From NCBI GenBank assembly GCA_033065855.1, contig JAVXUO010002710.1, positions 1-64,000 on the forward strand: DNA of 64,000 nt. Direction: 5' to 3'. Below the pieces are notes generated by a model, which made no database searches, was not told the origin of the DNA, and saw nothing but the letters and a program-made list of their open reading frames with translations. The position numbers and the translations under genes are program-made. Positions within the stretch are counted from its first letter, which is position 1. Each line of letters starts with the position of its first letter. Shown piece by piece: positions 47,130 to 63,958 of this stretch. This DNA comes from Escallonia rubra. Its lineage: Eukaryota > Streptophyta > Magnoliopsida > Escalloniales > Escalloniaceae.

Positions 47130-47367
47130 GGGAGCTGATCCCTTGACCGCTTAGGCAAAATAGGATATCTTGCCAGCGCGATCTGGCCGTCCATCCCGAA
47201 GGAATGGACGGTCCAGATCACTTTTTTTTGCGGCGCTGTCAGTCGTCCGCTACACAGTCTCGCGGACGGATCTTTTTACCATCTTGCCCTCGCTCACCCG
47301 TCCGCTACACAGTCTAGCGGACGACTGACATTGGGCCAACAAAAAGTGGTCCGCTACACTGTCTAGC
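47130..47367 (+). repeat. MULE left TIR
   Basis: Aligns inversely to 56203-56442. Contains palindromic motif copies starting at about 47246, 47302 and 47351. Confidence 0.92.
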
Positions 47368-47469
47368 GGACGACTGTTTCCGTCAAACCGCCCACTTCCC
47401 CCTGACAGTTGTCACATCAGTCGATGCACGTCTGTTACTTTGTCGTTATCCCAGCGTCCGCAACACAGT

Positions 47470-47882
47470 GTAGCGGACGTTGGCAAGCATTCGAATCCTT
47501 CTAAACTTCTATTCATTCCTTCTTCTCACAATCAAACTATTCCTTCTTCTCACAATCAAACTATTCCTTCTTCTCACGATCAAACCAGCGGCGTTGGCAA
47601 GTAGATCGGCGCAATTTCTTTGCAAGAAATCCTTTAATCGTCTCATCAATCACGTAAGTTCACAAACTAATCCTTACTTTGTTCATAATCTAGAGTTCAT
47701 CTTGCGGCGTTGGCAAGTAGATAGGCACTATGCTAGCGTTTGTCAATGTATATACATATATATTATATATGTGTATTGCGTATTATCTGATCACATGCTA
47801 GCGCTGAATATGCTAGCGTTGTATGTTTGTGAATGTTTACGCTTCCAACCTTGCCCTCTTTCCATTATTTCAGTTGCAAAAA
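47470..47882 (+). promoter_or_regulatory. 5' leader of the PMD-Ulp1 gene
   Basis: Contains a 25-bp direct repeat (ATTCCTTCTTCTCACAATCA, three copies, 47510-47583) and a duplicated 'GCGTTGGCAAGTAGAT' (47592 and 47707). A likely 5'UTR intron starts at GTAAGT (about 47656) and ends at TTTCAG (about 47873), ten bases before the ATG. The promoter would lie in or next to the TIR. Confidence 0.5.
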
Positions 47883-50800
47883 ATGGATTTCAACCCTGGA
47901 CCAGAAGATTCGTCCGTATTATACGACCAAGCATCCCATATCAGTACGCTCATATGGGATGGTGGAGTAAGATACTTATTTTATCGTTTATATCGTTTAT
48001 TTTGCTTACGTATTTCAGTTGCGAACGTTGTATAGTGTTTATTTTGCTTAAATAATATTTATTAATTCGTAGGAAAGAGCACTTGTCAACACGGTAGAAG
48101 TAAGCGATAATTTCAACGCCTGGAAATTGAACAGAACCCAGAAAAGATTAATGCGTGGGATTGGGTTTGGGATTTTCACGCATGGGCAGATCTTTCAACA
48201 ACTTGACCGGCACTTAATAGGTGCCCTTGTTGAAAGGTGGAGAAGTGAAACGAATACGTTTCACTTCCCTCTCGGAGAGATGACAATTACCCTAGAAGAT
48301 GTAGGGTTCATCTTAGGGTTACCGGTGACGGGGCGGCCGGTAATAGCTCATCCGTCCGAAGCAACGAATAAGAGGACCGCTAGGGACTTCTTTACTTCGG
48401 TACCACAGGATGGATTTAGCAGTGGTGGTATCAAGTTGAAGTGGTTGGTAGATACCTACGGGGTTTTGCCGGAAAACTATACGGGCCATGACCTTGTGCT
48501 GTACACACAAGCCTTCCTCTTGTGGGTGATGGGGGCAATATTATTCCCAACGACGTCGAAGAACACGGTCAACGTCAAATATTTACCGTTTTTGCGTAAC
48601 CTGGCTGAGGTTGGGGATTATGCCTGGGGTGCAGCAACTCTTGCATACCTGTACCGAGCATTGCACAAGGCAACGAGGCCCGACTCCAAAGCGATATGTG
48701 CATGTCTCTCGCTATTGCAGGTATATCATACAATTCTTCATTACGTGCTCTTTGTTGTTTTTTTTTTTGTTGAATGGACAATAAATGTTGACGATACTTT
48801 TTTCAATGTCTTTGCTCTCAGGTGTGGTCTTATGAACACCTTGCTACCGGCGCACCCAGGCGTAGGGACGGAACAGATAATGTGTGGCCTCGGTTGTGCG
48901 CCTGGGAGTACAGCCGGAAGGAAACCCACTACGAGAGGAGAGACGATCCCCATCACAACATTTCATACTATCGGGGGGAGCTCGACTCGTTATCTCCTGG
49001 CCAGATGCGATGGGCACCGTACAAACGTTTGGCGCGACGGGTGGGAGAGTCGTTCGTCTTCACGCTCTCCGGGTTGCAACGCACACCCCTGATCCACTTC
49101 GAGGTCGCAGAGTGGCAGCTGCCGGATCGCGCTATGCGCCATTTTGACTGCCTGCAGGGGTTGCCAGCCGGCGCGCCAGATATGAGGCTTAACAGGAACC
49201 CACCGGGTGTCGGACTGTTTGGCAGGCCGAATGCGCACGAGTTGTGCGCGTGTGAAATTGAGGTCTGGAATTCTTGGCAAGACACGCTGGCGGCCATTGT
49301 GTCGGAGCCTGACCCCGTCATCAGTATCGAACAGTACAACGAGTGGTACTACCGCATCACCCGGAGGAGAGTAGCTCCAGTAAGGTTTGAACGCGGGGAG
49401 AAGTACCACCCTAGGGGTCAGATCGATGAGCACATGGCATACAATCTGGTAAGTTGCCCAACCAGTGCTTCTAATTGAACTTGATCATTCTAAGTGTGTA
49501 CGAAGTTACTTATTTATTATCTCTCTGGATGTAGGTTAATGCCTCGTTCGCCTTCTTCCAGAAGTTGAGCGAGCGGAAGGATTTGGTGGATGCCATGGGC
49601 GAGGAGCTTCGCCAACAGGCTGAAGCGTTGGCGGTTGGCTGCGGGAATTTTTTGCGGCAAGCATCGGGACAGCCAAACCCGGGAATGGGTTATCCGGGGT
49701 GGCAGCGGCCGTTTGTTCCCGAGGGATGCACCGATCCATCGGGACAGACTTCGGGAGTGAGCCAGGGATATGGTTTTCCCTCTGTACCGGAGATCTGTGG
49801 TGATTGGGGACCGCCAAGCACCATGGGCCAAGCGCCGTGGGAAGATTACAGTGCGCCCTCCTTCTCTTTACTATTGGATTCGGAACCCCAACCCCTCTCT
49901 CAGAGTCAAGTCACGCAAGACTGGGGTTTCGGAAACATCAGTCTGCCCATTGTCCCGTGGGCAGGACCATCTATTGCCAAAGGCGGGCAATACCCCCCCG
50001 TTGACCCCCCTGAAGGAGGGCAATATCGCCCCGTCGACCCCCTCGAAGGAGTGCAATATCCCCCCGTCGACCCCCCCGAAGGAGTGCAATACCCCCCGGT
50101 CGACCCCCGAGGGCAATATCGCAAAGGGCATCCGTTGAAGCCCCTAAAGCCGCAGAAATGCCAGATAATCAGAGAGCGTTATTTTAGCGGCGTCCCGCAT
50201 GACCAAGCGTTGTATAGTGTGGATCATCCGGAGGGCATGGATTACAGTTGCTCGTGGGGAGAACTGGCCTCGCTGGCTCCGGGGAGTTGGTTAGACACCG
50301 GTGTCGTCTCCACCTACGTGGAGATTCTGAAGGAAAGGTGTCGGCAGCAGCCGATCTATCCGCTCGTTTTTCTGTTCGATGCCTTTTTTCATCAGATGCT
50401 AGTGTCTGAATGGCATGAGTGGGTCGAAAATAGGGGGAAGAAAAAGTTGGTCCAGTGGAGACCGTCCTTTAACCTACGAGCGTATCTTAATAGGGATAGT
50501 CCGGTGAGCGCAAGTGTTGCCGATGTGTTTCTAATCCCACTTTTAGGGCACAGCCACTGGTACTTGGTTTGCTACTCCCCAACAACTAAAGTCGTATCGG
50601 TGATCGACAGTCTCCACGACGATACTCATCAGATGCCTGTGCTGCACATGTACAAAGCCCAATTGGACGCGTTGGTAATATTACGATCGCTGTATAATTC
50701 TCTGATTCTATCTTGCCATAAATTTTAACTCGTGTCTTACGCCATTTTCTGTTTCTCGCAGAATATTTTTTGTGCAATGGTCAATCGTGTCCGTGATGTC

Positions 50801-51073
50801 CCCGTACCGGCGCGGCCAAATCTCAATAGGCGATTGAAGAAGAGGAGGCCCAAGCAACGTAACACTTCGGACTGCGGCGTCTTCCTTTGCATGTACATGG
50901 ATTTCATTTGTCGCTCTGAGAGCCTCAAGGCGGCCGTCTGGAGCCAAGCAGAAGTTGAAGGCTATAGATATAGAATGGCTTGGCAAATTATGAAAGGCCG
51001 GCCTAGAGCGGTTAGGTTTATAGAAAATCCGGCTAATGACGAGAATCCGGCCCAACATGCGGACCCCAGTTGA
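47883..51073 (+). CDS. Plant mobile domain–Ulp1/C48 protease fusion protein
   Basis: Five coding exons: 47883-47966, 48073-48720, 48822-49448, 49535-50674 and 50762-51073. All introns are GT-AG and all junctions are in frame, giving 936 aa with no stop. Residues ~45-440 form a plant mobile domain (aminotransferase-like PMD, as in MAIN/MAIL1), with LVERWRSETNTFHFPLGEMT followed by ITLEDVGFILGLPVTGRPV. A Gly/Pro/Gln-rich linker holds about four copies of a ~13-residue repeat (GQYPPVDPPEG). The C-terminus (~655-910) is a Ulp1-type cysteine protease: GHSHWYLV (His ~794), VIDSL (Asp ~811), and QRNTSDCGVF (Gln ~865, Cys ~871). All catalytic residues are present. It would cleave SUMO or a related modifier, possibly to stabilise element proteins or oppose silencing (inference). 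Convergent with the B3 and transposase genes. Confidence 0.9.
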
Positions 51074-51288
51074 AATTGTATCATAACAGTATTTTTTACA
51101 TAAACCGTACGCCATTGGTGTGATTTGATTTGTGTTGATTTGTGTTGTCGTTGGTGTGCTTTGTNTTGTGTTGATTTCTGTTGTCGAATACTGATTTTTC
51201 TGATGAACGTTGTTGGTTTTTTGGCCTCATTGGGAATGATTGAAATGTGGAAAACGAAATGGTGCAAAAATTTTGGAAGTTTCTCTGC

Positions 51289-52220
51289 TGCGCCGTCCGC
51301 TACATTGTATCGCGGATGTAAAATGAAGACCAAATTTTTCTAAGTATTGATACCAAAAGTTTAAACACCAAATTTTTCTAAGTGTTGATACCAAAAGTTT
51401 CTGCTGCGCCGTCCGCTACATTGTATCGCGGACGTAAAATGAACACCAAAAGTTTCTGCTGCGCCGTCCGCTACATTATATCGCGGACGTAAAATGAACA
51501 CCAAATTTTTCTAAGTGTTGATACCAAAAGTTCTGCTGCGCCGTCCGCTACATTGTATCGCGGACGTAAAATGAACACCAAATTTTTCTAAGTGTTGATA
51601 CCAAAAGTTCTGCTGCGCCGTCCGCTACATTGTATGGCGGACGTAAAATGAAGACCAAATTTTTCTAAGTGTTGATACCAAAAGTTTCTGCTGCCCCGTC
51701 CGCTACATTGTATCGCGGACGTAAAATGAAGACCAAATTTTTCTAAGTGTTGATACCAAAAGTTTCTGCTGCGCCGTCCGCTACATTGTATCGCGGACGT
51801 AAAATGAACACCAAAAGTTTCTGCTGCGCCGTCCGCTACATTGTATCGCGGACGTAAAATGAACACCAAATTTTTCTAAGTGTTGATACCAAAAGTTCTG
51901 CTGCGCCGTCCGCTACATTGTATCGCGGACGTAAAATGAACACCAAATTTTTCTAAGTGTTGATACCAAAAGTTCTGCTGCGCCGTCCGCTACATTGTAT
52001 GGCGGACGTAAAATGAAGACCAAATTTTTCTAAGTGTTGATACCAAAAGTTTCTGCTGCGCCGTCCGCTACATTGTATGGCGGACGTAAAATGAAGACCA
52101 AATTTTTCTAAGTGTTGATACCAAAAGTTTCTGCTGCCCCGTCCGCTACATTGTATCGCGGACGTAAAATGAAGACCAAATTTTTCTGCTGCGCCGTCCG
52201 CTACAATATATCGAGGCTAT
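51289..52220. repeat. Tandem array of about 13 palindrome-bearing units
   Basis: Units of about 77 bp, with shorter ~57-bp variants. Each holds the palindrome GTCCGCTACATTGTATCGCG followed by GAC, then GTAAAATGAA(C/G)ACC and usually AAATTTTTCTAAGTGTTGAT. Palindromes start near 51294, 51409, 51466, 51541, 51619, 51696, 51773, 51827, 51904, 51980, 52057, 52137 and 52194. The array fills the gap between the stop codons of PMD-Ulp1 (51073) and B3 (52298). Neighbouring units share variants (TGTATGGCGG in three units), showing local homogenisation. Confidence 0.93.
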
Positions 52221-52297
52221 TTCAAACGACACAATTAAGCGAGGAAAAATTTCGAAACACAATCAACAAGAACTCAAATTATTTTATTAATCATAAA

Positions 52298-52761
52298 TTA
52301 GGGTTCACATTGGGGGAAAGAAATTTTTTCACAAGTGCTCCGATCAAAGATTACAACTTCAAAATCCCACCACCCAAGGTGTTCAAACACTACAAAGTCC
52401 CCGAGTTCGAGGCCATGCTGGCGCACGAAGACGTTCCAACCCTCTGCGAATTGCTTTTTTTGGGGTCGGCCGGGCTTCAGCTTGATTTCAACCTGCCATG
52501 CCCCCTTGCGGCTATATAATCTTGCACTGTCATGAATTGTTGTAAATTGATTGGTGAAGGCTTCCGGTATGTCCTAACAAACACAATACACAAAAAATAG
52601 GTTAGTTTTTAACCAAAAGATTTAACACACGAAAATACAGAGATAGAGGGATGGCATACAAGTTCATTCTCAAACCCCGGCATCATGACTTTGAAAAAGT
52701 GTTTGCCTGCCAGGTGCAAGTTGCCAATAAAATCGTAGGTGGTCTCCGATCCAGAAGCCAT
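52298..52761 (-). CDS. B3 DNA-binding domain protein encoded within the MULE
   Basis: Two exons on the minus strand, 52660-52761 (34 codons) and 52298-52573 (91 codons plus TAA), joined through GTATGC…GTTAG in phase 0. They give a 125-aa protein that is essentially one B3 domain. Family pattern: HFFKVMMPGFENEL (strand 1), DIPEAFTNQF, AWQVEIKLKPG, FAEGWNVFVRQHGLELGDFV (the W..F...H.L..GD.VVF signature), then FEVVIFDRSTCEKISFP. B3 domains are plant-specific transcription-factor DNA-binding modules; this one is closest in style to REM-type B3 proteins (inference). AATAAAAT follows the stop. No other domain is present. It shares orientation with the transposase gene, and the region between them carries five palindromic motifs. 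Confidence 0.88.
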
Positions 52762-52920
52762 CGAGGTCGGCGTTGAGGGGGGGACGGTTTATCGCCGGAG
52801 TTGTGGATCACCTGTGGGTCGCCGGAGATGGAGTAGTGGCCTGGGCTAGATGTTCCAGACAGAGAGACTGTTATCAGATTGGACTGATAACAGCCGATTG
52901 CCCGATATGATTAATATATA

Positions 52921-53165
52921 TCATATAGACTTATCCGCTACATTGTATAGCGGACATAAAAGAAGACCAAAAGTTATGACGTCCGCTATATTATATAGTG
53001 GACATTAAAGAAGACCAAAAGTTTGCCTGCTCTAACGTCCGCTACATTGTATAGCGGACGTACAAAGACCAAAAGTTTTACTTCGATGCCACCCCTCCGC
53101 TAGACAATATAGCGGACGTAAAAGACCAAAGTCAATGATGTCGGCTACATTGTATAGCGGACGGG
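52921..53165. repeat. Cluster of five TCCGCTA…TAGCGGA palindromes
   Basis: Imperfect palindromes near 52928, 52981, 53037, 53095 and 53140, between the B3 start codon and the transposase 3' end. Same core as the TIR and array copies, with GTATAGCGGAC as the right half, but in a different spacer context. They occupy the likely B3 promoter. Confidence 0.85.
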
Positions 53166-53312
53166 GATTACCAAATAAAAAAAAAACTCATAATAAAGAC
53201 TTTAGATTTTATTCGATGGCCTCTCATAGGTCCATTTTAAAAAAATTCCAGTACCCGGTCGAAAAATTATCCCTCGAATATTATTACAAATGTCATAAAG
53301 TTGTACAAAAAA

Positions 53313-55655
53313 TTAAAGGTCCACTGCAGCTTGTTCGTCCTCATCTTCGGCGTCACCTTCTTCCCCGTCTTGCAAACCCCTTGAACTTATCCCCAGTGCC
53401 TTGTAATGGTTCCGCTTGTCGTGGTCGGTCATTTTGTTGCACAATGCACACCTTCGCAGCTTTTTAGGTTGAGTTGCCGTTTCAATAGAGCTTTTCATCC
53501 GCGTAGATCTCTTGCGGCCTTTCGTTTGCGATATAATTGGATCCAACAAACGGATATCATTGTCGTCTTCCTCCTCCGGCTCGTCATCTTCTGATACCCC
53601 CGTCGTAGGCTCGGTGTCAATCGCATTGGTGACTGAAGCTGCTTCCAACTGGTCGACGATGGGCTCTTGTTGCTGAGCTACCTCGAGGAGATGTTTATAA
53701 CCGACCATTGTAGCAGCACCTTTTACGGACAAACGGGTGAACATCGTCACCAGATGATTATACCGCAACGTCTCTGATTCTTCAAAGTCAGTATACGGGT
53801 GCTCCGGAAAGGAAATGGTACCGTGCAACCTGTTTGCACCTTTTGTCCACCGTGGCAAGACGTATTTATCGGGGATTGTCCTGATATTCTTCTGGGTGAA
53901 AAACCGCAGAACGTGTCTACACAGGATGCCATGGAACTCAAACTTCTTGCAAACACATGTCACCGAGTCCGTCAATGTGTCGTGGCTCACCGTATACATT
54001 CTGCGCAGCTTCTCAGGGACTAGGTCATTCACGAGCGAATAAACCTTGTACTCACGCGTAGACATTTCTGCCACCTTGTTTATACTGTATCGTCCGGATT
54101 TTCGCAGCTCTACTTGGTATAGCAAGAAGATCTCCTTCGTATAGACTTTGGCACCGTTCATCTCCAGCGGGGTCTCGAGCAACGTTCTCCTTTGTTTGTA
54201 CGTTGTTGCAAAGTCGGCAGCCCTTTCTTTTACGAACAACGAAGCTACCGCTTTTTGTGCGGATGCAACGAAAGTCTTCAAATTGGTAGCTGTACCCACA
54301 TAACTATCGAACGTGGCATTCATGGATTCACTCCTGCCCGTCGTTTTCATGCCCGCTGAAAAATACCTCCTCGTGTAAACGCCAATCCATTGCTCTTTGC
54401 GCTCGTACAAGTGCTGGAGCCACTCGTTGTCTTGCAATGAGTAATCCCGAACAAGCTTTTCCCACCTCTCCTCGAATTCCTCAATCGTTAACGACTTGAG
54501 GACGCACTTGTCAAAATCCTGTTTAAAGTCTTGATACTTTGCGTACACGTGATGCAGCCGTTCCGGGTATTTGTTGCTTATGTGCCAGGTGCACAAGTTG
54601 TGCCGAGTGTCTGGGAAGACGGTCGCAATAGCCTTCTTCATTGCCAAATCTTGATCGGTGATGATCACTTTGGGTGCTTTGAAGTTCATTGCTTCCAGCC
54701 ACGTCCTAAACAACCATTCAAAAGAACTCTCGGTCTCGTCCCTTAACAAGGCGAACCCGAACAGGATGGAGTGATAATGATGATTGACCCCCGTGAAAGG
54801 GGCGAACGGCATCGAGTACTTGTTGGTACGGTATGTGGTGTCGAACGTCACGACATCCCCAAAATGCTTATAAGCAAGCCTCGAACGACCGTCGACCCAA
54901 AAAATTGTGCTAACTCGATGCTCGTCGTCAAGTTTATAATCGAAGGTCAACTGCGGGTCCTCCATCTGCATCCGTTTCAATAGGCTCATTGTGGCTTGAG
55001 CATCATTGAGGTCATACGCGGCTCGTCTATGGGTTCGGACCGCGTTACGAACGTCTGTCGTGTTAAAGGTCAAATTTTGAATTCCCCCAGCCTGTTCAGC
55101 AAGAACATTAATCATGTCGGTAGGTCCTAGTCGCGCATTGCTCATTGTCTGAATCAGGCTCCTTGCGACCTTACCCATCTTCTTGTGTTGATGCATCTCA
55201 CTCACCTTAGAAGGGGTTACTAACGGGTGATTGTGTGCCAGTTCCAGGCTGGTAATAAGCCAATGGTCTTGTTTGGGTTTGTAGCTTACGAACATCTTGA
55301 CCTGGCAATTTGTGCACTCAAAGCAGTCCCGTCTTCTACGCGGATATCCTATTTCGTCCTCACTGTCATCATTGCCTACACATGTCTCATTTTGCACTGG
55401 GTTTCTGCTCCTATGGCACTCGTATAAGCGAGAGCATATCTTTCTCGTTATGGTGCTCGTTCTTGAAGTCTTTATTCTAATGCCAAAACCAACCCTCAAT
55501 GAATACGCTCGAAAACATGCTTCAGCTTCTTCCAACGTAGCAAATGTTCGTCCTAGATACGGATCACTAGCATCTACGGGGACGTTGGAGCTCGACACGA
55601 AATCAGACATTGTGAAACAAGAGCTGTGTAGAAATAGACTACGCTTAACAATCAA
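53313..55655 (-). CDS. FAR1/MuDR-type transposase
   Basis: A single open frame of 780 codons. The second Met (55610, MSDFVSSSNVPVD) is the more typical start. Residues ~35-145 form a FAR1 WRKY-GCM1-type zinc finger (C74, C80 … CFECTNCQVK … AHNHP). The central MULE DDE nuclease has D272 (VVTFDTTYRTNKY), D334 (VIITDQDLAMKKA), C355/H358 (CTWHI) and E443 (GRSESMNATFD). The SWIM finger is C567-x-C569…C579-x-H581 (CVCKKFEFHGILCRHVL). The C-terminus is acidic, with a basic KGRKRSTRMK stretch and a Cys cluster. All catalytic and metal ligands expected for the FAR1 clade of Mutator transposases are present and no stop interrupts it. A domesticated FHY3/FAR1 factor is excluded by its position between matching TIRs. 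Confidence 0.95.
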   Translation of the reverse strand: MIVKRSLFLHSSCFTMSDFVSSSNVPVDASDPYLGRTFATLEEAEACFRAYSLRVGFGIRIKTSRTSTITRKICSRLYECHRSRNPVQNETCVGNDDSEDEIGYPRRRRDCFECTNCQVKMFVSYKPKQDHWLITSLELAHNHPLVTPSKVSEMHQHKKMGKVARSLIQTMSNARLGPTDMINVLAEQAGGIQNLTFNTTDVRNAVRTHRRAAYDLNDAQATMSLLKRMQMEDPQLTFDYKLDDEHRVSTIFWVDGRSRLAYKHFGDVVTFDTTYRTNKYSMPFAPFTGVNHHYHSILFGFALLRDETESSFEWLFRTWLEAMNFKAPKVIITDQDLAMKKAIATVFPDTRHNLCTWHISNKYPERLHHVYAKYQDFKQDFDKCVLKSLTIEEFEERWEKLVRDYSLQDNEWLQHLYERKEQWIGVYTRRYFSAGMKTTGRSESMNATFDSYVGTATNLKTFVASAQKAVASLFVKERAADFATTYKQRRTLLETPLEMNGAKVYTKEIFLLYQVELRKSGRYSINKVAEMSTREYKVYSLVNDLVPEKLRRMYTVSHDTLTDSVTCVCKKFEFHGILCRHVLRFFTQKNIRTIPDKYVLPRWTKGANRLHGTISFPEHPYTDFEESETLRYNHLVTMFTRLSVKGAATMVGYKHLLEVAQQQEPIVDQLEAASVTNAIDTEPTTGVSEDDEPEEEDDNDIRLLDPIISQTKGRKRSTRMKSSIETATQPKKLRRCALCNKMTDHDKRNHYKALGISSRGLQDGEEGDAEDEDEQAAVDL

Positions 55656-56202
55656 ATGGCATTTCTAACTGAAAATATTACCTAAAAATTAGGATGGCAA
55701 ACATACGGTATGCATAATCTCAAAAGTGTCTCCAAATTAACAATTACTAATTTATTGAACATAACAAATTTAAATTAGTAAGATAAATAGACGAATTCAT
55801 CATGCCAAAAAATCGAATTAAACTATAATGAATTAAATATAAAGTTAACAAATTATACCTTTTTGATGAACATCATGTCTAGAACATCACAAAAAATCTA
55901 GAGTATAAAATCACAAATTGATGAATACAGTGACAAATTTCTAGAACATCAAGAAAGCTTGAAGCAAACTTACCTTGCTTGAGCGAAGCTTGAAGCAAGT
56001 GTTACTCGAAGCTTGAAGGCAGCTGAAAATGGAAGCGAGTCTGAAGGAGAAGAAAATTGTGCGGAAAGAATTGAGTAGAAGAAAATTGTGCTGAAAGAAA
56101 GGGGATGGGCAATACTGTCCGCTATACTGTGTAGCGGACAGAATTGCCGACATCAAGTCACACTTGTGTCAGACAAGTCACAATTGTGTCAGAATGACAG
56201 TC

Positions 56203-56442
56203 GTCCGCTGGACAGTGTAGCGGACTACTTTTTGTCGCAGGTTGTTTTCGTCCGCTAGACTGTGTAGCGGACGTGTGAGCAAGGGCAAGATGGTAAAAAG
56301 ATCCGTCCGCGAGACTGTGTAGCGGACGACTGACAGCGCCGCAAAAAAAAGTGATCTGGACCGTCCATCCCTTCGGGATGGACGGCCAGATCGCGCTGGC
56401 AAGATATCCTATTTTGCCTACGCGGTCAAGGGATCAGCTCCC
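56203..56442 (-). repeat. MULE right TIR
   Basis: Inverse of 47130-47367. Palindromic motif copies start at about 56203, 56249 and 56306, plus one subterminal copy at about 56117. Confidence 0.92.
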
Positions 56443-56640: not shown

Positions 56641-58812
56641 TGTCTAGTTTACAGTATATCTGATTTAATCATAGGAAATAATAAACATTTAATTCAGCAA
56701 ATTCAACAAGACTTTAAATTAGAAAAATTTTGCACAAAGGCAAGATTCAATAACCTTATAACTACTAGAGTACAAATCAGACATTATAATAAGTTATTAG
56801 AAACAAATGCCATAATAGATACAGGATGCACTATTACTGTTATAGATCCAAGCCTAGCAGACCTATCTCACATCAAGACATTCGAAGAACCCTTAATTGG
56901 TATAAGATTTACAGGCAATCCTATTAAATATTCTGAATATATTACAAATGCAGTTATTACTTTTCTTACACCATGCAATACACAAAGTAAACCGTACTCT
57001 CTTAAACAAGCCTTTTGTGCGCCTGTCGCACACTCAGTAGGAAAAATTATTTTAGGAATAAATTTCTTAATAAATGACAATAATACTTTAACTATTACTA
57101 AAGACTTTATTCAAATAGCACAAAATGTGACACATACACCTATTAACATAGACACTCCATCAGAGTACGCTCAGAAGCGTGGTGGGGAATATGTTAATAT
57201 AAAAGGCAAAAACAAAATATGTGAAGACTGTAGTAACGGAAAGACAAATTGTTGTCTAACCAATACAGATATAGGATATGAATGTTTAAAAATAGAAGAA
57301 ATAATAGAAGAAAATGACATAGAAAATAATATAGATCTAGACGTTTACAACCTAGATAGAATTAGCTATAATTTAATAAATTACTTTACAAATAAATATG
57401 ATATTCTCAAAGCAATAGACAGACTCCCTTTTATAAGAGAAGATCCTATTAAAAGATGGGATTTAAATCAGATATACTGTAAACTAGACATTATAAATCC
57501 AGACTATATTGTTAAAACTGCAAATATAGAAGCAAGTAGTTTAGATACAGATGATTTCAAAATGCACATAAAAGACTTAACAGAATTAAAAGTAATAAGA
57601 CCAAGCAATAGCCCTCATAGATCTGCAGCTTTCATAGTTAGAAACCACGCAGAAATACTTAGAGGCAAAAGTCGAATGGTAATAAATTATAAAAGACTAA
57701 ATGATAATATAAGAGATGATAGTTATAACATTCCTAATAAAACCTTTCTTTTAAGTAAAATACAAGGCAAAAAGATATTTAGCAAATTTGACTGTAAATC
57801 AGGCTTTTATCAAATTAAAATGTGGCTAGAAGACATTAAATGGACAGCTTTTACTACACCAGAAGGCTTATATGAATGGTTAGTCATGCCCTTTGGTCTT
57901 AAGACAGCCCCTAGTATCTTCCAACGCAAAATGGACGATATTTTTAGACCTTATAATGACTTTATTTTAGTATACATAGACGATATTTTAGTCTGTAGTA
58001 AAAATGAACATGAGCATCTGTCTCATTTAGATTTAGTTTTTAAACTTTTTAACAAACACGGTTTAATACTTAGCAAGAAAATTGTAGAATTATTCAAAAC
58101 AAATATAAAATTCTTAGGGATGGAAATAGGAAATGGCAAAATAAAATTACAAGAACATATAGCTAAAAAGATCTTAGACTTTCCAGACAAATTAGAAGGT
58201 TTAAAACAAATTCAGGCATTTTTAGGATTAATTAATCAAGCCATAATGTATTTTAAAGACCTAAGTAAATTAATAGGCCCGCTATATAACAAAACTAGAA
58301 AAAATGGACAAAGACATTTTAACACAGAAGATATTAGATTAGTTAAAACTATAAAAGAGAGAGTCAAACATTTACCTGATCTATATTTACCTTTAGACAC
58401 AGATTATTTAATAGTTCAGACAGATGGATGCAAAGACGGATGGGGAGCAGTTTTATACTGCAAACCAAACAAATATAGTAATAAGAAAGAAGAAAGAATT
58501 TGTAGATATTCTAGTGGCAAATACAAAGAAAGTAATCAATATTTGACAAGTTTAGACTACGAATTACTAGCTATAGTGTACGCACTAGAACATTTCAAGG
58601 CACTTTTAATTTCTAAATATGAGTTTTGTATTAGAACGGACTGTGAGGCCATAGTAAGATACAACAAGAATAAAGATGCTAGATACACAAATAGATGGTT
58701 AAAATTTATGACTTCCTTAAGCAATTATAGGATAGATAAAATAGAATGGCAACACATTAAAGGAGTTGATAACTCCATTGCCGATCTATTATCTAGAAAA
58801 ATTTTATCTTGA
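56641..58812 (+). CDS. Caulimovirid polymerase (protease–RT–RNase H), start lost
   Basis: The frame is open for 723 codons from just after a TAA (56638-56640) to the stop at 58812. No in-frame ATG was found before the protease, so the natural start seems to have been lost at the mosaic junction. Domains in order: aspartic protease (AIIDTGCTIT, about residue 60), a Cys-containing linker, reverse transcriptase (FDCKSGFYQIKM, then VYIDDILVCS with the YxDD active site), and RNase H (QTDGCKDGWGAVLY, DYELLAIVYALEH, IRTDCEAIVRY). No stop or frameshift was seen inside. It would process and reverse-transcribe viral RNA. In context it is a fixed genomic copy without evidence of expression. Confidence 0.88.
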   Translation, partial: CLVYSISDLIIGNNKHLIQQIQQDFKLEKFCTKARFNNLITTRVQIRHYNKLLETNAIIDTGCTITVIDPSLADLSHIKTFEEPLIGIRFTGNPIKYSEYITNAVITFLTPCNTQSKPYSLKQAFCAPVAHSVGKIILGINFLINDNNTLTITKDFIQIAQNVTHTPINIDTPSEYAQKRGGEYVNIKGKNKICEDCSNGKTNCCLTNTDIGYECLKIEEIIEENDIENNIDLDVYNLDRISYNLINYFTNKYDILKAIDRLPFIREDPIKRWDLNQIYCKLDIINPDYIVKTANIEASSLDTDDFKMHIKDLTELKVIRPSNSPHRSAAFIVRNHAEILRGKSRMVINYKRLNDNIRDDSYNIPNKTFLLSKIQGKKIFSKFDCKSGFYQIKMWLEDIKWTAFTTPEGLYEWLVMPFGLKTAPSIFQRKMDDIFRPYNDFILVYIDDILVCSKNEHEHLSHLDLVFKLFNKHGLILSKKIVELFKTNIKFLGMEIGNGKIKLQEHIAKKILDFPDKLEGLKQIQAFLGLINQAIMYFKDLSKLIGPLYNKTRKNGQRHFNTEDIRLVKTIKERVKHLPDLYLPLDTDYLIVQTDGCKDGWGAVLYCKPNKYSNKKEERICRYSSGKYKESNQYLTSLDYELLAIVYALEHFKALLISKYEFCIRTDCEAIVRYNKNKDARYTNRWLKFMTSLSNYRIDKIEWQHIKGVDNSIADLLSRKILS

Positions 58813-58887
58813 GATAACTCCATACAATTAGACAGACATCTATTTCATACAATTTAGAATCAGACAAATTTCTTGTTTTATTAACAG

Positions 58888-60161
58888 ATGGCATCTTCAG
58901 CATCAGCATCTTCCTCTTCTCAGACCAGGCAAACCCTGTTTTTCCAACTCAGTTCGTCAGTTATATTGACAACTTTGGTAGAAATAGGATTAATTTTAAT
59001 GGCAATAACTTAGAAGTCTTACAGGCAGGCTCCAGGTTTCAGGTCAAAGACCATAAAATTGGTCATTTCCCTGTAGACCAAAGAACACTCTTAGATAACT
59101 TATGGCAATCTTATGTTAAAAAAGACAACGAATGGTTTGTCAATACAGTTAACGCTGTGGCAAATTATTTTCATAAATTAAGAGACACTAAAAAATATAA
59201 TTTTTATTGTGTTTTTAAAGGCACTATTCCGGGTATATATAAAAGTTATCCTGAGGCTATGGTTGGCGGAGTAGGAAATGTAAAAGATCCTTGGTACAAA
59301 GGAACCATAACATTTCAAGAAGCCACCACTTTAATGCAGACCCATTATGGCCCCAACTATTATATTAGTCCAGACTGTCAAGACAGATCTATTTCTGACA
59401 CCTTAGCAGACTGTGAAAATTGCAATACTTTAATTAGACACCATAATATTTTAAAATCCAGAATAGACCATTTACTTTTAGAAAAATCACATTTTGATGT
59501 ACAAGTAGCACATCTCAAATCCCAGATACAAGTAGCAGAACTAGAGGCAAATGACTGGAAACAGAGGTATACCACTCTCCTTTCCACCAGGCAACAGACA
59601 TCAAAACCCAATGTTTCGGGTAATAAAGGAACATCTAGTCTGGATTCACAGGCATCCAGTAAAGACAAATCAAGTCCTGTTACAGTTGGTAATTTACTTA
59701 AAATTACTGAAATTCCTTTGGGTTCAGGAGAAAGAATCCCTAGTCCAGCTTCACAGGCTGCTGGTAAAGACTCCTCAAGTCCTGATAGAGTTGGTGTTTT
59801 ACTCAAAAACACTGAAAATCCTTTAAATATGGGAGAATATATTTCTAGTCCAGTTCCACAGGTGACTGGTAAAGACTTATCAAACCCTGAGACCCCTGTC
59901 CATTTGGGAAAAATGGAGTTACGCAAACTTAAAAGCAAAAAGGCAAAAAGACAAGCCCTGGCCATACAAAGTCAGGTTGCCAAAGTACTTGCAGAACTTG
60001 TTAATCAGACACTAGCATCCAAGACAGAAGCGTCCACCAGCAATTTTGATGATTCAATCTTTCAAGACGCTCAAAGACAGAGCCCAAGCCTTACAGCTAA
60101 TTCCGGTGACTCATCTGAAGATCAGACAGAAGAATCTAGTGAACGACCTTTAAAAAAGTAA
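58888..60161 (+). pseudogene. Viroplasmin/translational transactivator gene, frameshifted
   Basis: The ATG at 58888 opens a Ser/Ala-rich start, but that frame ends within about 45 codons. The main frame (readable from about 58920 to 60161) is offset, so an indel lies at about 58905-58930 in a TCT-rich stretch. The viroplasmin fold (RNase H1-like, as in caulimovirus inclusion-body proteins) is recognisable in FYCVFKGTIPGIYKSYPEA followed by WYKGTITFQEA. A coiled-coil-like segment and three ~45-residue repeats (LLKxTExPL-(8)-SPxxQxxGKD) come next, then a Lys-rich C-terminus. It normally builds the viral factory and allows reinitiation on polycistronic RNA. Confidence 0.8.
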
Positions 60162-60439
60162 ATACACAATCTTCAGGAGCATTATTACTTCAGACAAAAA
60201 TGAATAGAAGACTCAAGACTTATCAAGACTCGGAAAGCAGACAAGACCCCTCTAAAATTGAATTATTAAGCCAAGAGACAAAGCATCTTTCTTTTGGTAA
60301 AGGCAACAGAAGACATTGTCAGAAAAAGCATCTTGGTTGAAAAAGAAGACATTATCAGAGAAGGCATCTTCCTATAAGACATCGTCGGCAGAAGAACAGC
60401 AGAGGATGAAGACAAGAAACAAAGCATCTTAGCCTTTAG

Positions 60440-61398
60440 GCCTACTATTTGCTTTATAGACTTTAAGACTTCCTTTTAAAATTATTGTTATGTAGTCTAA
60501 AGTTATTTTGTCCTTTGTACAAATGTAATGCATTAGTCCTGTAGATGTCCTGTAGAATAGCTTTATTCTGCCTATATAAACTCAGGCAGAGTTCATTTGT
60601 AAACATGCGAAGTAATCCTTTGAAGAGTAATACAATATTCTCTTTGAAACTTCTCTGCTTCATGCAATCTCACTTCTCTCTGTAAATCATCCAATTCCTC
60701 AATTCAAGTACGCAGCAATCTTTATTTCAAGTAAGTTCATTTTCTAAACTTGTTTAATATTCTGGGGTGAAAACGCTCAATGACGAAACACATTCTATGA
60801 ATTGAAAAGGAACGTTTCTAAGTCTAATATGACTAAAAACATCCTAATAATGTTTTGATTCAAAATCATATGGCATTTACTTGGGAAAGAGAGACTCTTT
60901 TAAAACAATTTTGTTTTGAAAAATAATTATGCTTACCCCAGGTCTACCTAGATCTAAATCAATTATGCTTCTAAACGAATTTCCAGAGTCCTCTTTATGG
61001 GTTGAAACAATAGTGGGAGCGAGTCGTTCAGGGTTATTGCCGAGTGATGGCGTTGAAAGCCCGCAGACTAACGCATGCCCTGAGTTTCTTACTTTGAAAG
61101 AAGACTTTGTCGGTTCAACCTAGCATCCTGAGATTTATTCTAGACTAGACCTACCAGGCATCCTGAAGTTTTGAAAAATAAAATCTTCTTCAAAGACTCT
61201 CTCTCTCTCTAAGTTTTTGCCCTATTTTTTGAATCTTTTCAGTATTCCGCTGTGTTTTTTATCTATATTACGCTTCGTCCTTAATGGATCACGGTCCAAC
61301 CGGGGACTCTTTCTCTTTTGAATGTTTAATCTACGGATACCAGACGTCGCTATGCCTTTGGCAGGTCCGCAAGGATTGACGATTTTAAAGTAAAAATA
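60440..61398 (+). promoter_or_regulatory. Viral intergenic region: TATA promoter and leader
   Basis: TATATAAA at 60573-60580 lies downstream of the transactivator gene, the position of the pregenomic RNA promoter in caulimovirids. A leader of about 0.8 kb with several short uORFs follows. The conserved TGGTATCAGAGC primer site expected in this region is not visible, suggesting deletion or drift. Confidence 0.55.
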
Positions 61399-61764
61399 AT
61401 GACTAAAGGATATGAAGATTTTCAACAAGGCAAAAATCTTTTAATATGCACTACTTTTATAGGAAAGTTAACACAAAATAGTCAAGTAGGATATAAATTA
61501 ACCATAGATGATACTGCAAAATTTATCATAAATAGAGGAATTAGACTCTTACCACCATATAAAGTAGATTCATTAGAAAATGCAGGACAAGAATGGCAAG
61601 TAGATAAACTACTAGAAACAAGCTCTAATAATAGTATTATACCCACAGACAACTTTTATTATAGAAATGCTTCAGGAAGAATGTCAGTTAGATTTACAAA
61701 TTATGTTGAAGCAAATACTCACCTAGGAGATCATGACATTCAAGAAGAGGAAGAAAATGTATAG
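61399..61764 (+). CDS. Small viral ORF, unknown function
   Basis: A 121-aa frame just after the leader, overlapping the next ORF by about 30 bp as is common in caulimovirids. I recognise no domain. Position suggests an early accessory protein; a movement-protein core is not evident. It contains repeated Gly-Lys-Leu and an acidic end (DIQEEEENV). Confidence 0.5.
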   Translation: MTKGYEDFQQGKNLLICTTFIGKLTQNSQVGYKLTIDDTAKFIINRGIRLLPPYKVDSLENAGQEWQVDKLLETSSNNSIIPTDNFYYRNASGRMSVRFTNYVEANTHLGDHDIQEEEENV

Positions 61765-62320
61765 TTACAAAGACTTTGACATCCTAAACAATTTAGACAT
61801 AAAAATCTTAAATCAATCTATAGGAACTACATTCGTAGGAAAAGGTTTAAATTTAGAACAATTACAACACTTTATAAATATTACAGAAGAAGAAGACAGA
61901 TTAGATATTTTTAATCAACCAGAATATACATTACAAACTAATCAAGACAACTCTATTATTGATTGTTTAAAAGACATAGACATCAACTTAGATAAAAGCC
62001 CTTCAATTGAATCTCCCGGTCTAGATAAACTTAGCCCTGAAATAAATCATAAAATAGAATTAGAACAGAAAATCAACCAAGCGATAAATGAAATAGAGTT
62101 AATTAGAAAAGAACAAACAACTCTAGAAAATGATAATAATATACTAGTAGAAGAAATGGATAACATATTAGATTCTTTAGAACCTGAATTAGACCTAAAT
62201 ATAGACTTAGAACAGTTAGAAACAAGTTCATTAGACACCCAAATTACAACAAACAATGTTAAATTCAACCTAATGAATGAAGTACCTTATTTCCTTATGG
62301 AAGAAGGTGAAAATTCAGGT
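61733..62320 (+). pseudogene. Small viral ORF with coiled coil, truncated at an inversion junction
   Basis: The frame opens at 61733 (likely Met at 61757). It has a long acidic heptad region (IELEQKINQAINEIELIRKE and onward, about 62050-62230) predicted to form a coiled coil. This resembles in style the small virion-associated or helper proteins of caulimoviruses, but homology is not claimed. Around 62315-62325 it runs into inverted coat-protein DNA, so its last residues are not native. Confidence 0.5.
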
Positions 62321-63958
62321 ACAACTATCTTCTTGTCTTTGTTTTAGGGTTTCTTCTATTTGAATAACCTTTTGTTCTAAGAATTCTAGTCTTCTATTAA
62401 CATTTTTATCGTAGTAAGTGTCTTTATTTGTTTTTAGTTCTAAGGGTTTTATAATATCTATGTTATATTTCTGTTTAATGCATTTTACACATGCTTCTAC
62501 ATAACATACTTCACACTTACATCTGACTTTAATAGCTGGATACCAATTGCATATATAACATGGAGTTGTATCTATACCTTTTTCTATATGCCATTGATGT
62601 ATACAGGTTTCTTCTAGGGCTAATTGTCCTGCTAAGGGTTTAAACATAAAGTTGTATATTTCTGTATCTCTTAAAGAATTTATAAAGGTATCTAGTTTGT
62701 CTGTAGTTTCTATTGGAAAATTTTCTTCTTCTTCATCACTACTTATAGAGAGGTTGTCTTCTATGTATTCATCTATAGATTTAATACTATATATACTTTC
62801 TGTATCACTAAGAGTTTCATCTACTTCTAACAGATCTTCATTTGTATTGTTGACTATCATTGCTTTAAAGTTATTGTTGTTATGTCTTCTAGGGCAATTA
62901 GAGCTTAAATGGTCTGGTTCTCCACACGAGTAACAAGTAATTTTATTTTTGTATATTCTCCTAGTGTCATATTTCCTAACGTGTTTAGGGTTTAGAAAGG
63001 GCCTTCTAGCTTTGCTTTTTCTTAAGTAATAAGTCTTTCTAGGTTGTTTATATCTTTTGTGAGGTTTCTTATTATACTTAGGTCTAGATTCTTCTTGACC
63101 AAAGTGATGTGGTGTGTATATTTCTTTACAGAAACTGGTTTCATTCTTTAACTGTCTAGCTATCTGTATATTAGTGCATTTAGAAACTAATATTTCTATA
63201 ACATGTTCAAAAACATTGCCTAAAGAAGGTGTCAATGTAGTGCTAGGATAGAGTTTTTTAATGGTTTCATATATTTCTCTTCCTAAAGCGCCTGGTAACT
63301 TATTTAGAAACTTATCTATTACAGCTGGTTTATAAATATTGCCACTCTGTGAAGCAAAGTAATAGTATTCTTGCATGAAGGGTTTTATATTATGCCAACT
63401 ATATAGATGTACTTGTTCTAATTTTCTAGCTGCTTCAGTTTGTATTAATGTATCTCCTGTATTAGGATTTCTACCTGTTAAAATTAATTGTATAGTGTTA
63501 ACAAAATTATAAGGATTGGGTCCTAAGTCTGCCATTTGTTTTAAATCATCAGGATAAGTCTTTTGCCATTCTTCAAAATTAGCCTTAGCTATAGGGCCTA
63601 AAAATTGTATCATATATCTTATCATTTCTTCGCCTGTTTCTAAATTATCAGATTGTTTGGTTATAAAGTTTGCTACAACTGCATCTTTCCATACTTGTAT
63701 ATAATTGTTTCTTTGTTGAGGGTCTACTGCTGTTATGTTTAAAATAAAAGGATCTGCTGCCTTTTGGATTTTAAAATTTTGTTCTAAAGGATGTCTTTTA
63801 CCTCTAGGTTTATAATTAGGTCTATCTGATCTATTATGTTCTATGTTTGCGCTATTTCTTGGTATGTTACCATAAGGATAACGTGGTCTTACATGAGGTT
63901 GTGTGGTATAAAATATGCCTCCATCATCGTTTCTATTATTATACAGCTTTAGAAACAA
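62315..63958 (-). CDS. Caulimovirid coat protein (inverted relative to pol)
   Basis: A minus-strand frame of about 547 codons without stops; the first codon is TTG, so the true start is probably lost. A basic N-terminal region is followed by the capsid core (FVNTIQLILTGRNPNTGD; AARKLEQVHLYSWHNIKPFM) and an Arg/Lys-rich stretch (HKRYKQPRKTYYLRKSKARR). A CCHC zinc knuckle follows (CYSCGEPDHLSSNC), then an acidic patch. The C-terminal Cys-rich segment (CYICNW…CKCEVC…CVKC) could form an extra zinc site. Packages viral DNA. The inversion separates it from pol. Confidence 0.82.
   Translation of the reverse strand: MFLKLYNNRNDDGGIFYTTQPHVRPRYPYGNIPRNSANIEHNRSDRPNYKPRGKRHPLEQNFKIQKAADPFILNITAVDPQQRNNYIQVWKDAVVANFITKQSDNLETGEEMIRYMIQFLGPIAKANFEEWQKTYPDDLKQMADLGPNPYNFVNTIQLILTGRNPNTGDTLIQTEAARKLEQVHLYSWHNIKPFMQEYYYFASQSGNIYKPAVIDKFLNKLPGALGREIYETIKKLYPSTTLTPSLGNVFEHVIEILVSKCTNIQIARQLKNETSFCKEIYTPHHFGQEESRPKYNKKPHKRYKQPRKTYYLRKSKARRPFLNPKHVRKYDTRRIYKNKITCYSCGEPDHLSSNCPRRHNNNNFKAMIVNNTNEDLLEVDETLSDTESIYSIKSIDEYIEDNLSISSDEEEENFPIETTDKLDTFINSLRDTEIYNFMFKPLAGQLALEETCIHQWHIEKGIDTTPCYICNWYPAIKVRCKCEVCYVEACVKCIKQKYNIDIIKPLELKTNKDTYYDKNVNRRLEFLEQKVIQIEETLKQRQEDSCT

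Follow-up and report, generated by a model that had tools for sequence, protein, structure and literature searches.

The locus at 47130-56442 of the 64-kb window (the whole stretch of DNA that was analyzed) raises the question whether a transposon that carries three open genes is a cooperating module or the product of random gene capture. This interval is one complete MULE with TIRs of about 200 bp (Table 1). The left TIR starts with GGGAGCTGATCCCTTGACCG at 47130, and the reverse complement of this sequence ends at 56442; the two TIRs show 2 mismatches in the first 150 bp and 9 in the first 200. Both a MULE transposase domain and TIRs are present, and the first-pass annotation of one element with near-identical TIRs and three open genes describes the window copy well. 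Its term "composite" has to be abandoned, as the same three genes recur across most long TIR-paired copies, which rules out a chance assembly. Because the element sits in a TA-rich repeat that would mask any duplication, a target-site duplication of the 8-11 bp typical of MULEs is not distinguishable at this copy (best candidate, 9 of 10 positions matching). Both flanks were read in 37 of 38 TIR-paired copies, and all 37 were TA-rich. For copy C1110 the left flank only was read, and two TIR-paired copies have a common 6-bp TATATA between them.

Table 1. Features of the element, in window coordinates; gene models were built from splice signals and homology.
Feature	Position	Strand	Remarks
Left TIR, ~200 bp	47130..47329	+	inside TA-rich microsatellite
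Four palindromic sites (starts 47245, 47300, 47349, 47456)	47245..47478	.	subterminal, upstream of PMD-Ulp1
PMD-Ulp1 fusion gene, 936 aa, five exons	47883..51073	+	
PMD-Ulp1 exons	47883-47966, 48073-48720, 48822-49448, 49535-50674, 50762-51073	+	GT-AG introns
Central array, 12 palindromic sites	51295..52163	.	between 3' ends of PMD-Ulp1 and B3; spacing mostly 77/78/55 bp
B3 protein gene, 125 aa	52298..52761	-	exons 52761-52660 and 52573-52298
Five palindromic sites	52933..53162	.	upstream of B3 start codon, 3' of transposase gene
FAR1/MULE/SWIM transposase, 765 aa, single exon	53313..55610	-	
Four palindromic sites (starts 56117, 56203, 56250, 56305)	56117..56327	.	subterminal, upstream of transposase
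Right TIR, ~200 bp	56243..56442	-	

The three proteins proved to be of the types initially proposed. The DDE transposase with FAR1 and SWIM fingers was matched in Pfam for all its domains (MULE PF10551, 3.7e-33; FAR1, 2.8e-11; SWIM, 5.3e-5). Its FAR1 domain (PF03101) covers residues 33-131 and is thus N-terminal, as in the Jittery or FAR1-type group. The nearest proteins in similarity search were two at 46-47%, then Daucus FAR1-RELATED SEQUENCE 5-like proteins at 41%. The five-exon model of the second gene yields a protein of 936 aa with PMD (2.7e-73) and Peptidase_C48 (2e-13) domains, in which the regions of a predicted His-Asp-Cys triad align with SENP2 (1tgz, E 3.4e-11). The best match of the PMD is to Escallonia rubra (96%), and exon 4 contains Pro-rich 33-bp repeats forming a variable tandem-peptide region. 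The single-domain B3 protein is intact and matches PF02362 at 1.5e-10 (41.3 bits, for a Pfam cut-off of 30.1). The closest solved B3 structures, both weak matches, were VRN1 (E 0.01) and At1g16640 (E 0.04), which we take to be of the REM-type class; VRN1 has little preference for particular sequences when it binds DNA. The best database match of the B3 protein is a predicted protein of Escallonia herrerae, which has kept the same second exon (about 90% identity to copies in the genome), although part of exon 1 is missing from its model. This protein was also considered as a bridge to a further host subfamily and set aside, its best genome match being just 90%.

The element belongs to a large and young family. 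In the host genome (566 Mb), its terminal 20-mer has about 1,000 matches, and 30-mers at ≤2 mismatches gave 1,059 sites for the transposase, 519 for B3 and 253 for Ulp1 (reversed controls, 0). The median pairwise transposase difference is 0.22% (25 copies), and the window element would represent the autonomous form of a MULE family that has amplified recently and sits in TA microsatellites. Among 25 TIR-paired copies of at least 7 kb, B3 is intact in 24 and the transposase in 24; all five PMD-Ulp1 exons are found in 20 and an intact PMD-Ulp1 frame in 12, and 11 copies have all three genes intact. Co-occurrence of the three ORFs in related copies is therefore strong at this length; it is weaker at the 100 listed exact transposase sites, where B3 was found at the expected place beside 52 (its detection being incomplete) and none was nearby in 48. 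Similarly, the annotation of PMD-Ulp1 as intact stands for the window copy and not for the family, as the frame is broken in 8 of the 20 long copies that have every exon. The full B3 coding sequence could be recovered from 26 copies; it was intact in all of them and gave an identical protein in 22. Of the three more diverged B3 copies (L051-L053), two have a frameshift near the 3' end. The B3 intron of the second subfamily is not open in frame, as it ends with an in-frame TAG.

These counts bear on the possibility that B3 and PMD-Ulp1 are captured passengers which hitchhike in a young burst, the palindromic sites spreading merely as parts of the element. Gene capture by MULEs is documented (PMC13317346), and the frequently broken PMD-Ulp1 frames and the transposase sites devoid of a nearby B3 point in the same direction. 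So does the pN/pS of 0.73-0.87 in the young subfamily, which indicates nearly neutral drift for all three genes, transposase included. Against it stand the integrity of B3 in the recovered copies, the second exon retained in E. herrerae, and a palindrome that is conserved relative to its flanks and placed upstream of all three genes. We regard such a passenger origin as quite improbable. The dN/dS comparison proposed at the outset was run, and gave pN/pS values of 0.34 for the transposase and 0.62-0.69 for PMD-Ulp1, these between-subfamily figures coming from one copy, L049. For B3 it does not separate a working part from a passenger, the ratio being uninformative (mean of 2.1 nonsynonymous and 0.5 synonymous changes), and purifying selection on B3 was not retained from the comparison with L049, which holds too few changes. 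The initial view of a cooperating module rather than random capture thus gains from the genes travelling together in long copies, from the palindrome upstream of each, and from subterminal palindromes whose fixed positions are identical in the two subfamilies compared; the ratio for B3 and the near-neutral drift of the young subfamily lend it nothing.

The palindrome is a 23-bp dyad, GTCCGCTAN7TAGCGGAC, which also occurs near both ends and in the variable central array (7-24 sites among copies of at least 7 kb). At ≤3 mismatches, 25 sites lie inside the element; the core TCCGC-N11-GCGGA at ≤1 mismatch occurs 26 times in the element and 0 times elsewhere in the window. Genome-wide, 11,428 perfect dyads were counted (reversed control, 0), and the shared palindromic sites are far more numerous and more ordered than first noted. 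The core reaches up to 1.9 bits per position, and the flanks past the adjoining base at most 0.36 bits (22 flank-dereplicated sites). The two-fold symmetry fits a dimeric binder. A cruciform as the cause of the palindrome is disfavored, since positions 9/15 and 7/17 frequently lack complementarity and the base identity at the others is fixed. Spacer inversions between copies leave some room for a cruciform.

Another explanation is that the dyads are subterminal transposase sites, read for example by the FAR1 domain, to which B3 and PMD-Ulp1 are unrelated. In each of the six gene-less 1.4-kb relatives that were read, 6-8 sites are retained, without exception close to the ends, and the related nonautonomous copy L050 has sites near both ends. 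A comparison of the window copy with L049 at the 8 subterminal sites gave 0 differences at 112 fixed positions and 12 at 72 variable ones, with 47 at the 1,376 other bases of the two subterminal regions; as the fixed and variable positions were defined on the same family, there is some circularity in this test. In the region upstream of B3, the fixed positions were no better conserved than the remainder (5/56 and 30/377 changed), and over all three regions fixed and outside positions did not differ significantly (p 0.55). However, the central array and the five sites upstream of B3 have no obvious use in end recognition, and the sites of nonautonomous copies are equally compatible with anti-silencing, because nonautonomous copies that are silent would also require it. 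We therefore consider a role limited to transposase binding to be unlikely.

If the dyad is read by a protein encoded in the element, as we infer, B3 and PMD-Ulp1 are candidates beside the transposase. We know of no B3 site resembling the half-site TCCGCNANAY, which, like the low sequence preference of VRN1, counts against B3 as the reader; nor do we know of a case of direct DNA binding by a PMD, which counts against PMD-Ulp1. PMD-Ulp1 might nevertheless read the palindromes itself and remove silencing in the manner of VANC, B3 being an accessory comparable to VANB. VANC proteins bind short, tandem-repeated noncoding motifs of their own element that turn over fast, and have variable tandem-peptide regions (PMC5735166); some contain Ulp1 (PMC13317346), and "PMD and/or DUF" is listed for half of the VANDAL-group members (PMC6446971). 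An anti-silencing use of MULE-captured PMDs has also been speculated upon (PMC5418596). The Pro-rich repeat of the present protein varies too, and one PMD exon weakly matches the VANC domain DUF1985. But this match (E 0.027) is below the cut-off and not significant, neither DUF1985 nor DUF287 being found in the whole protein at E ≤ 0.1, and the two-fold symmetric dyad is unlike the 9-base motif YAGTATTAY of VANC21 (PMC5735166). This attribution of both functions to PMD-Ulp1 appears somewhat improbable.

We tentatively favor, at less than even confidence, an autonomous MULE with its own regulatory kit, in which the transposase moves the element, PMD-Ulp1 relieves silencing and B3 reads the dyad. 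The transposase, given its domain content, would mobilize the element. PMD-Ulp1 would be a chromatin effector stripping SUMO or otherwise relieving silencing at the DNA of the family, a role that may be likened to that of the VANC and KIU proteins of VANDAL MULEs. B3 would be the most likely reader of the dyad, binding as a dimer at the sites upstream of the genes, at those of the central array and at those close to either end; through this binding, all three genes would stay active and the ends of the element would be marked. The gene-less relatives would profit as well, as those read keep their end sites. The more specific proposal of a two-part anti-silencing switch, in which a transposon-borne B3 (sequence reader) and a PMD-SUMO-protease (eraser) act via the 23-bp dyad, separately from VANC and in a different MULE clade, is rather doubtful.

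The turnover of the noncoding DNA is part of this argument. Relative to L049, the divergence is 2.8-8.3% in noncoding DNA other than introns and 0.6-1.3% in most coding exons. As for VANC targets, for which fast turnover of repeat number and noncoding sequence has been reported (PMC10398659, PMC5735166), a short motif lies in rapidly changing tandem repeats of the noncoding DNA. Divergence is not limited to the dyad-bearing parts, site-free noncoding DNA also differing from L049 (6.9% 3' of PMD-Ulp1, 2.8% upstream of the transposase). The favored reading of a regulatory kit is weakened by this wider divergence, and by PMD having been listed before in elements of the VANDAL group.

The three-gene set had been put forward as not previously described. 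What would be new is the way the genes are combined, together with the B3 factor and the dyad; the principle of sequence-specific anti-silencing via tandem motifs in noncoding DNA is already published. Among the best matches of longer lists in the open-licence literature, we found no published MULE with B3 plus PMD or Ulp1. The family could be studied in living plants, being young and having all three genes intact in nearly half of its long copies, and its thousands of genomic dyads constitute a natural set of candidate binding sites.

To our knowledge, VANDAL is the sole lineage in which a transposon-encoded, sequence-specific escape from plant silencing has been worked out in detail. In other MULEs, parts of the present system are found separately. 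Ulp1 in MULEs and PMD in transposons are each in print, as first stated (PMC5418596, PMC13317346, PMC6446971). Jittery-group MULEs share with our element the TIRs and a FAR1/MULE/SWIM transposase with N-terminal FAR1, but their plant members are listed with one ORF, compared with three genes here (PMC6446971); a text search of that paper for "ulp1" and "b3 domain" found neither term. MuTAnT and AutoMuTAnT (Medicago), the SaTar MULEs (guayule, rice) and rice Micron likewise lie in (TA)n microsatellites. These (TA)n MULEs have many short nonautonomous relatives, and AutoMuTAnT has a Jittery-like transposase; it is, however, 4,873 bp long with a single ORF, and "mobile domain" is absent from the text of both papers on (TA)n-inserting MULEs. 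The MUDR, MUDRAVI2 and MULE-Monocots groups carry a PMD gene, which frequently runs antisense to the transposase (PMC5418596, PMC6446971), but belong to other transposase groups, and the MULE PMDs of PMC5418596 are transposase fusions. The REM-type B3 proteins VRN1 and At1g16640 are weakly similar in the B3 domain and are encoded by host genes, unlike the single short transposon-borne B3 described here.

The closest parallel is provided by the VANDAL MULEs of Arabidopsis (VANA/VANB/VANC, KIU). They too have three genes, one of them for a transposase; the second protein carries Ulp1 in some of them, a short motif recurs in rapidly evolving noncoding DNA of the element, and PMD and/or DUF are listed for half of the group members (PMC6446971). 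Ulp1-bearing VANCs (KIU) are said to recognize noncoding motifs (PMC13317346). In contrast, our element has a FAR1-type transposase, a B3 protein and a 23-bp dyad in place of a 9-base motif, and its effector has a PMD without significant DUF1985 or DUF287; anti-silencing is attributed to it by analogy. The three-gene set with its dyads looks like a system of self-activation akin to that of VANDAL/VANC, housed in a TA-inserting MULE of the FAR1 type and extended by B3. If this is true, the VANDAL logic of an Ulp1-type effector and a repeated, fast-evolving noncoding target, recurring in a FAR1-type MULE, would suggest a repeated origin of such systems, and the PMD inside the effector would bear on the role of this domain, which many MULEs carry (PMC6446971).

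The window element belongs to a real and abundant family of three-gene Mutator-like elements (MULEs) with an ordered dyad site. The first-pass annotation had described a three-gene MULE with near-identical terminal inverted repeats (TIRs), and this description was confirmed by end-to-end comparison of the TIRs, which showed 2 mismatches in the first 150 bases and 9 in the first 200, and by domains and gene models for all three genes, the models being based on splice signals and homology. The spliced PMD-Ulp1 protein matched the profiles of PMD (2.7e-73) and Peptidase_C48 (2e-13), and the alignment of its protease part with human SENP2 covered the His, Asp and Cys regions. The solved structures matched by the B3 sequence were VRN1 and At1g16640, both weakly.

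Features of the window element and of the neighbouring sequence
Feature	Position	Strand	Description
Whole element	47130-56442		both ends one 20-mer, reverse complemented at the other end; TA-rich microsatellite surrounds
PMD-Ulp1 gene			five exons, GT-AG introns; 936 aa
B3 gene			two exons; 125 aa; B3 domain 41.3 bits
Transposase	53313-55610	minus	765 aa; FAR1, MULE and SWIM domains
Dyad sites, upstream of PMD-Ulp1, near left end			4 sites
Dyad sites, central array			12 sites
Dyad sites, upstream of B3			5 sites
Dyad sites, upstream of transposase, near right end			4 sites
Adjacent sequence	57127-63958		looks like endogenous pararetrovirus-type sequence
561-aa ORF	57127-58812		reverse transcriptase and RNase H
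ORF	62315-63958	opposite to the 561-aa ORF	CCHC-like knuckle
Copia-type fragments	6171-8087	minus	7119-8087 has matches to the retroviral SH3-like and RVT_2 domains and a weak one to rve; 6171-6842 resembles the remainder of the polymerase by eye

Three relatives of the PMD protein were listed at E 1e-20: two Escallonia rubra proteins (96% over 54% of the query and 79% over 65%) and an Iris protein matching at 31% across 44% of the query. For B3, the one listed match was a predicted protein of Escallonia herrerae (two candidates scored), whose best match in the genome of the window was 90%. From these matches, the host would probably be a species of Escallonia different from E. herrerae.

In the 566 Mb plant genome containing the window, the terminal 20-mer gave 520 forward and 509 reverse matches when at most 2 mismatches were allowed, against none for its reversed control. 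From the first 100 matches listed, 38 TIR-paired elements including the window copy were drawn, and all were read. Every flank read was TA-rich (both sides of 37 copies and the left side of copy C1110), a location already known for the MULEs MuTAnT (PMC4486113) and SaTars (PMC5907723). Two near-equal copies in opposite orientation (L011 and L012, G000:C85:53732-67874) are separated only by TATATA; both have most of PMD deleted, and the same contig holds further copies. Nested within each TIR (window 47187-47211 and 56361-56385) is another inverted repeat, near-perfect, CCGTCCATCCC...GGATGGACGG, with counterparts in L049, a copy of a second subfamily, and in L050, a related nonautonomous copy.

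Thirteen of the 38 elements were shorter than 7 kb, six of them (1.36-1.49 kb) without any of the three genes. Among the 25 copies of at least 7 kb, scored with an exon-end match of at least 85%, B3 and the transposase were each intact in 24, and all five PMD-Ulp1 exons were present in 20, 12 of which kept an intact frame; all three genes were intact together in 11. With copy L018 and L049 added, 13 of 22 PMD-Ulp1 frames were intact, six were broken within exon 4, in its Pro-rich repeat, a further one was broken in the tail and two had a stop in the head. As the exon 4 repeat is rich in long C runs, its frame breaks may be sequencing or assembly errors.

Genome-wide 30-mer matches (up to 2 mismatches; reversed controls, 0) numbered 1,059 for the transposase, 519 for B3 and 253 for Ulp1, the last being the least complete count because the Ulp1 part diverges faster. 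Among the exact matches listed for the first contigs, which give undercounts, the transposase was at the expected place and strand for 46 of 54 B3 sites, whereas B3, scored by exact 30-mer or by place from a separate B3 search, stood beside 52 of 100 transposase sites; 32 Ulp1 sites had B3 in 22 cases, transposase in 24 and both in 19. Thus most B3 genes adjoin a transposase, whereas many transposase copies lost or never had B3. The co-occurrence of the three genes recurs in long copies but does not extend to every transposase.

Between subfamilies (window copy versus L049), the transposase differed by 0.61% in substitutions, B3 exon 2 by 0.72%, and exon 2, exon 3 and the last exon of PMD-Ulp1 by 0.77%, 1.28% and 2.9%; introns differed at 5/380 bases in PMD-Ulp1 (four introns) and 0/86 in B3. 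In gapped alignments, divergence in the noncoding parts with dyads was 3.7% at the left, 8.2% at the right and 8.3% upstream of B3; in those lacking sites it was 6.9% on the 3' side of PMD-Ulp1 and 2.8% immediately ahead of the transposase. Divergence within the subfamily (window versus L013) was 0.2-2.3% for the same noncoding parts and 0.09% for the transposase. These figures indicate that noncoding DNA outside introns turns over faster than the genes, with or without sites. Between subfamilies, the transposase had a pN/pS of 0.34, the PMD head 0.62 and the Ulp1 tail 0.69 (excluding L014 there, which carries a frameshift); values within the subfamily were 0.73-0.87. The between-subfamily value for B3, 1.17, comes from a mean of 2.1 N and 0.5 S changes and allows no verdict; two of three diverged B3 copies had a frameshift near the end.

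The window element holds 25 sites with up to 3 mismatches to GTCCGCTAN7TAGCGGAC, and the genome as a whole contains 11,428 perfect dyads, against none for the reversed control. The six gene-less 1.4-kb copies each kept 6-8 sites, every one near the ends. L050, whose terminus is recognisably similar to that of the family, has sites with a different spacer; an apparent captured host gene fragment lies between its dyad-bearing ends, and the terminus of a second element directly follows a common TA repeat. A comparison of 22 sites whose flanks are dissimilar (one lies in the coding sequence of the transposase and is probably a chance match) showed strong conservation of the core, weak conservation of the adjoining bases and none in the remaining flanks, giving the consensus G TCCGC TA n AYWRT n TA GCGGA C. 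The variable positions are non-complementary in many sites, which speaks for recognition by a protein over hairpin pairing. In a subterminal palindrome at each end (window 47300 and 56250), the 7-base spacer is reverse-complemented relative to L049 (CACAGTC against GACTGTG), as though through inversion of the loop.

In the left and right regions, changes versus L049 affected 0/112 fixed dyad positions, 12/72 variable positions of those sites and 47/1,376 remaining positions. Upstream of B3 the figures were 5/56, 4/36 and 30/377, with no contrast between fixed positions and the rest. When the three regions were pooled, fixed positions did not differ significantly from the outside (p 0.55); variable and fixed positions differed significantly (p 0.0007). 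All of these comparisons are partly circular, because the fixed set was derived from the same family.

Beyond these observations of gene content, dyad placement, copy numbers and TA-repeat location, a mechanism can be proposed: the transposase would move the element, PMD-Ulp1 would remove SUMO, an element-encoded protein would bind the dyad, and silencing would be relieved at the element. A cooperating module of the three genes and the dyad, as the annotation had suggested, is a plausible hypothesis. As reader of the dyad we favor B3, since the site is two-fold symmetric and the sole recognised domain of B3 is DNA-binding; PMD-Ulp1 and the transposase are both serious candidates for this role.

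Among the papers listed in searches of open-licence literature, none described a MULE combining B3, PMD and Ulp1. PMD genes are known in MULEs, frequently in antisense (PMC6446971; PMC5418596). Plant Jittery-group MULEs share the FAR1 transposase, but have one ORF each in the table of PMC6446971, versus three genes here. The proposed mechanism resembles that reported for the VANDAL group, half of whose members carry PMD and/or DUF according to that table. Its VANC proteins bind short motifs in fast-diverging noncoding tandem repeats and strip silent marks (PMC10398659; PMC5735166), and some VANCs carry Ulp1 (PMC13317346). By analogy, the window family may follow the same logic. VANC has DUF1985 where the window element has PMD, and the latter adds a B3 factor and has a 23-bp dyad as its motif.
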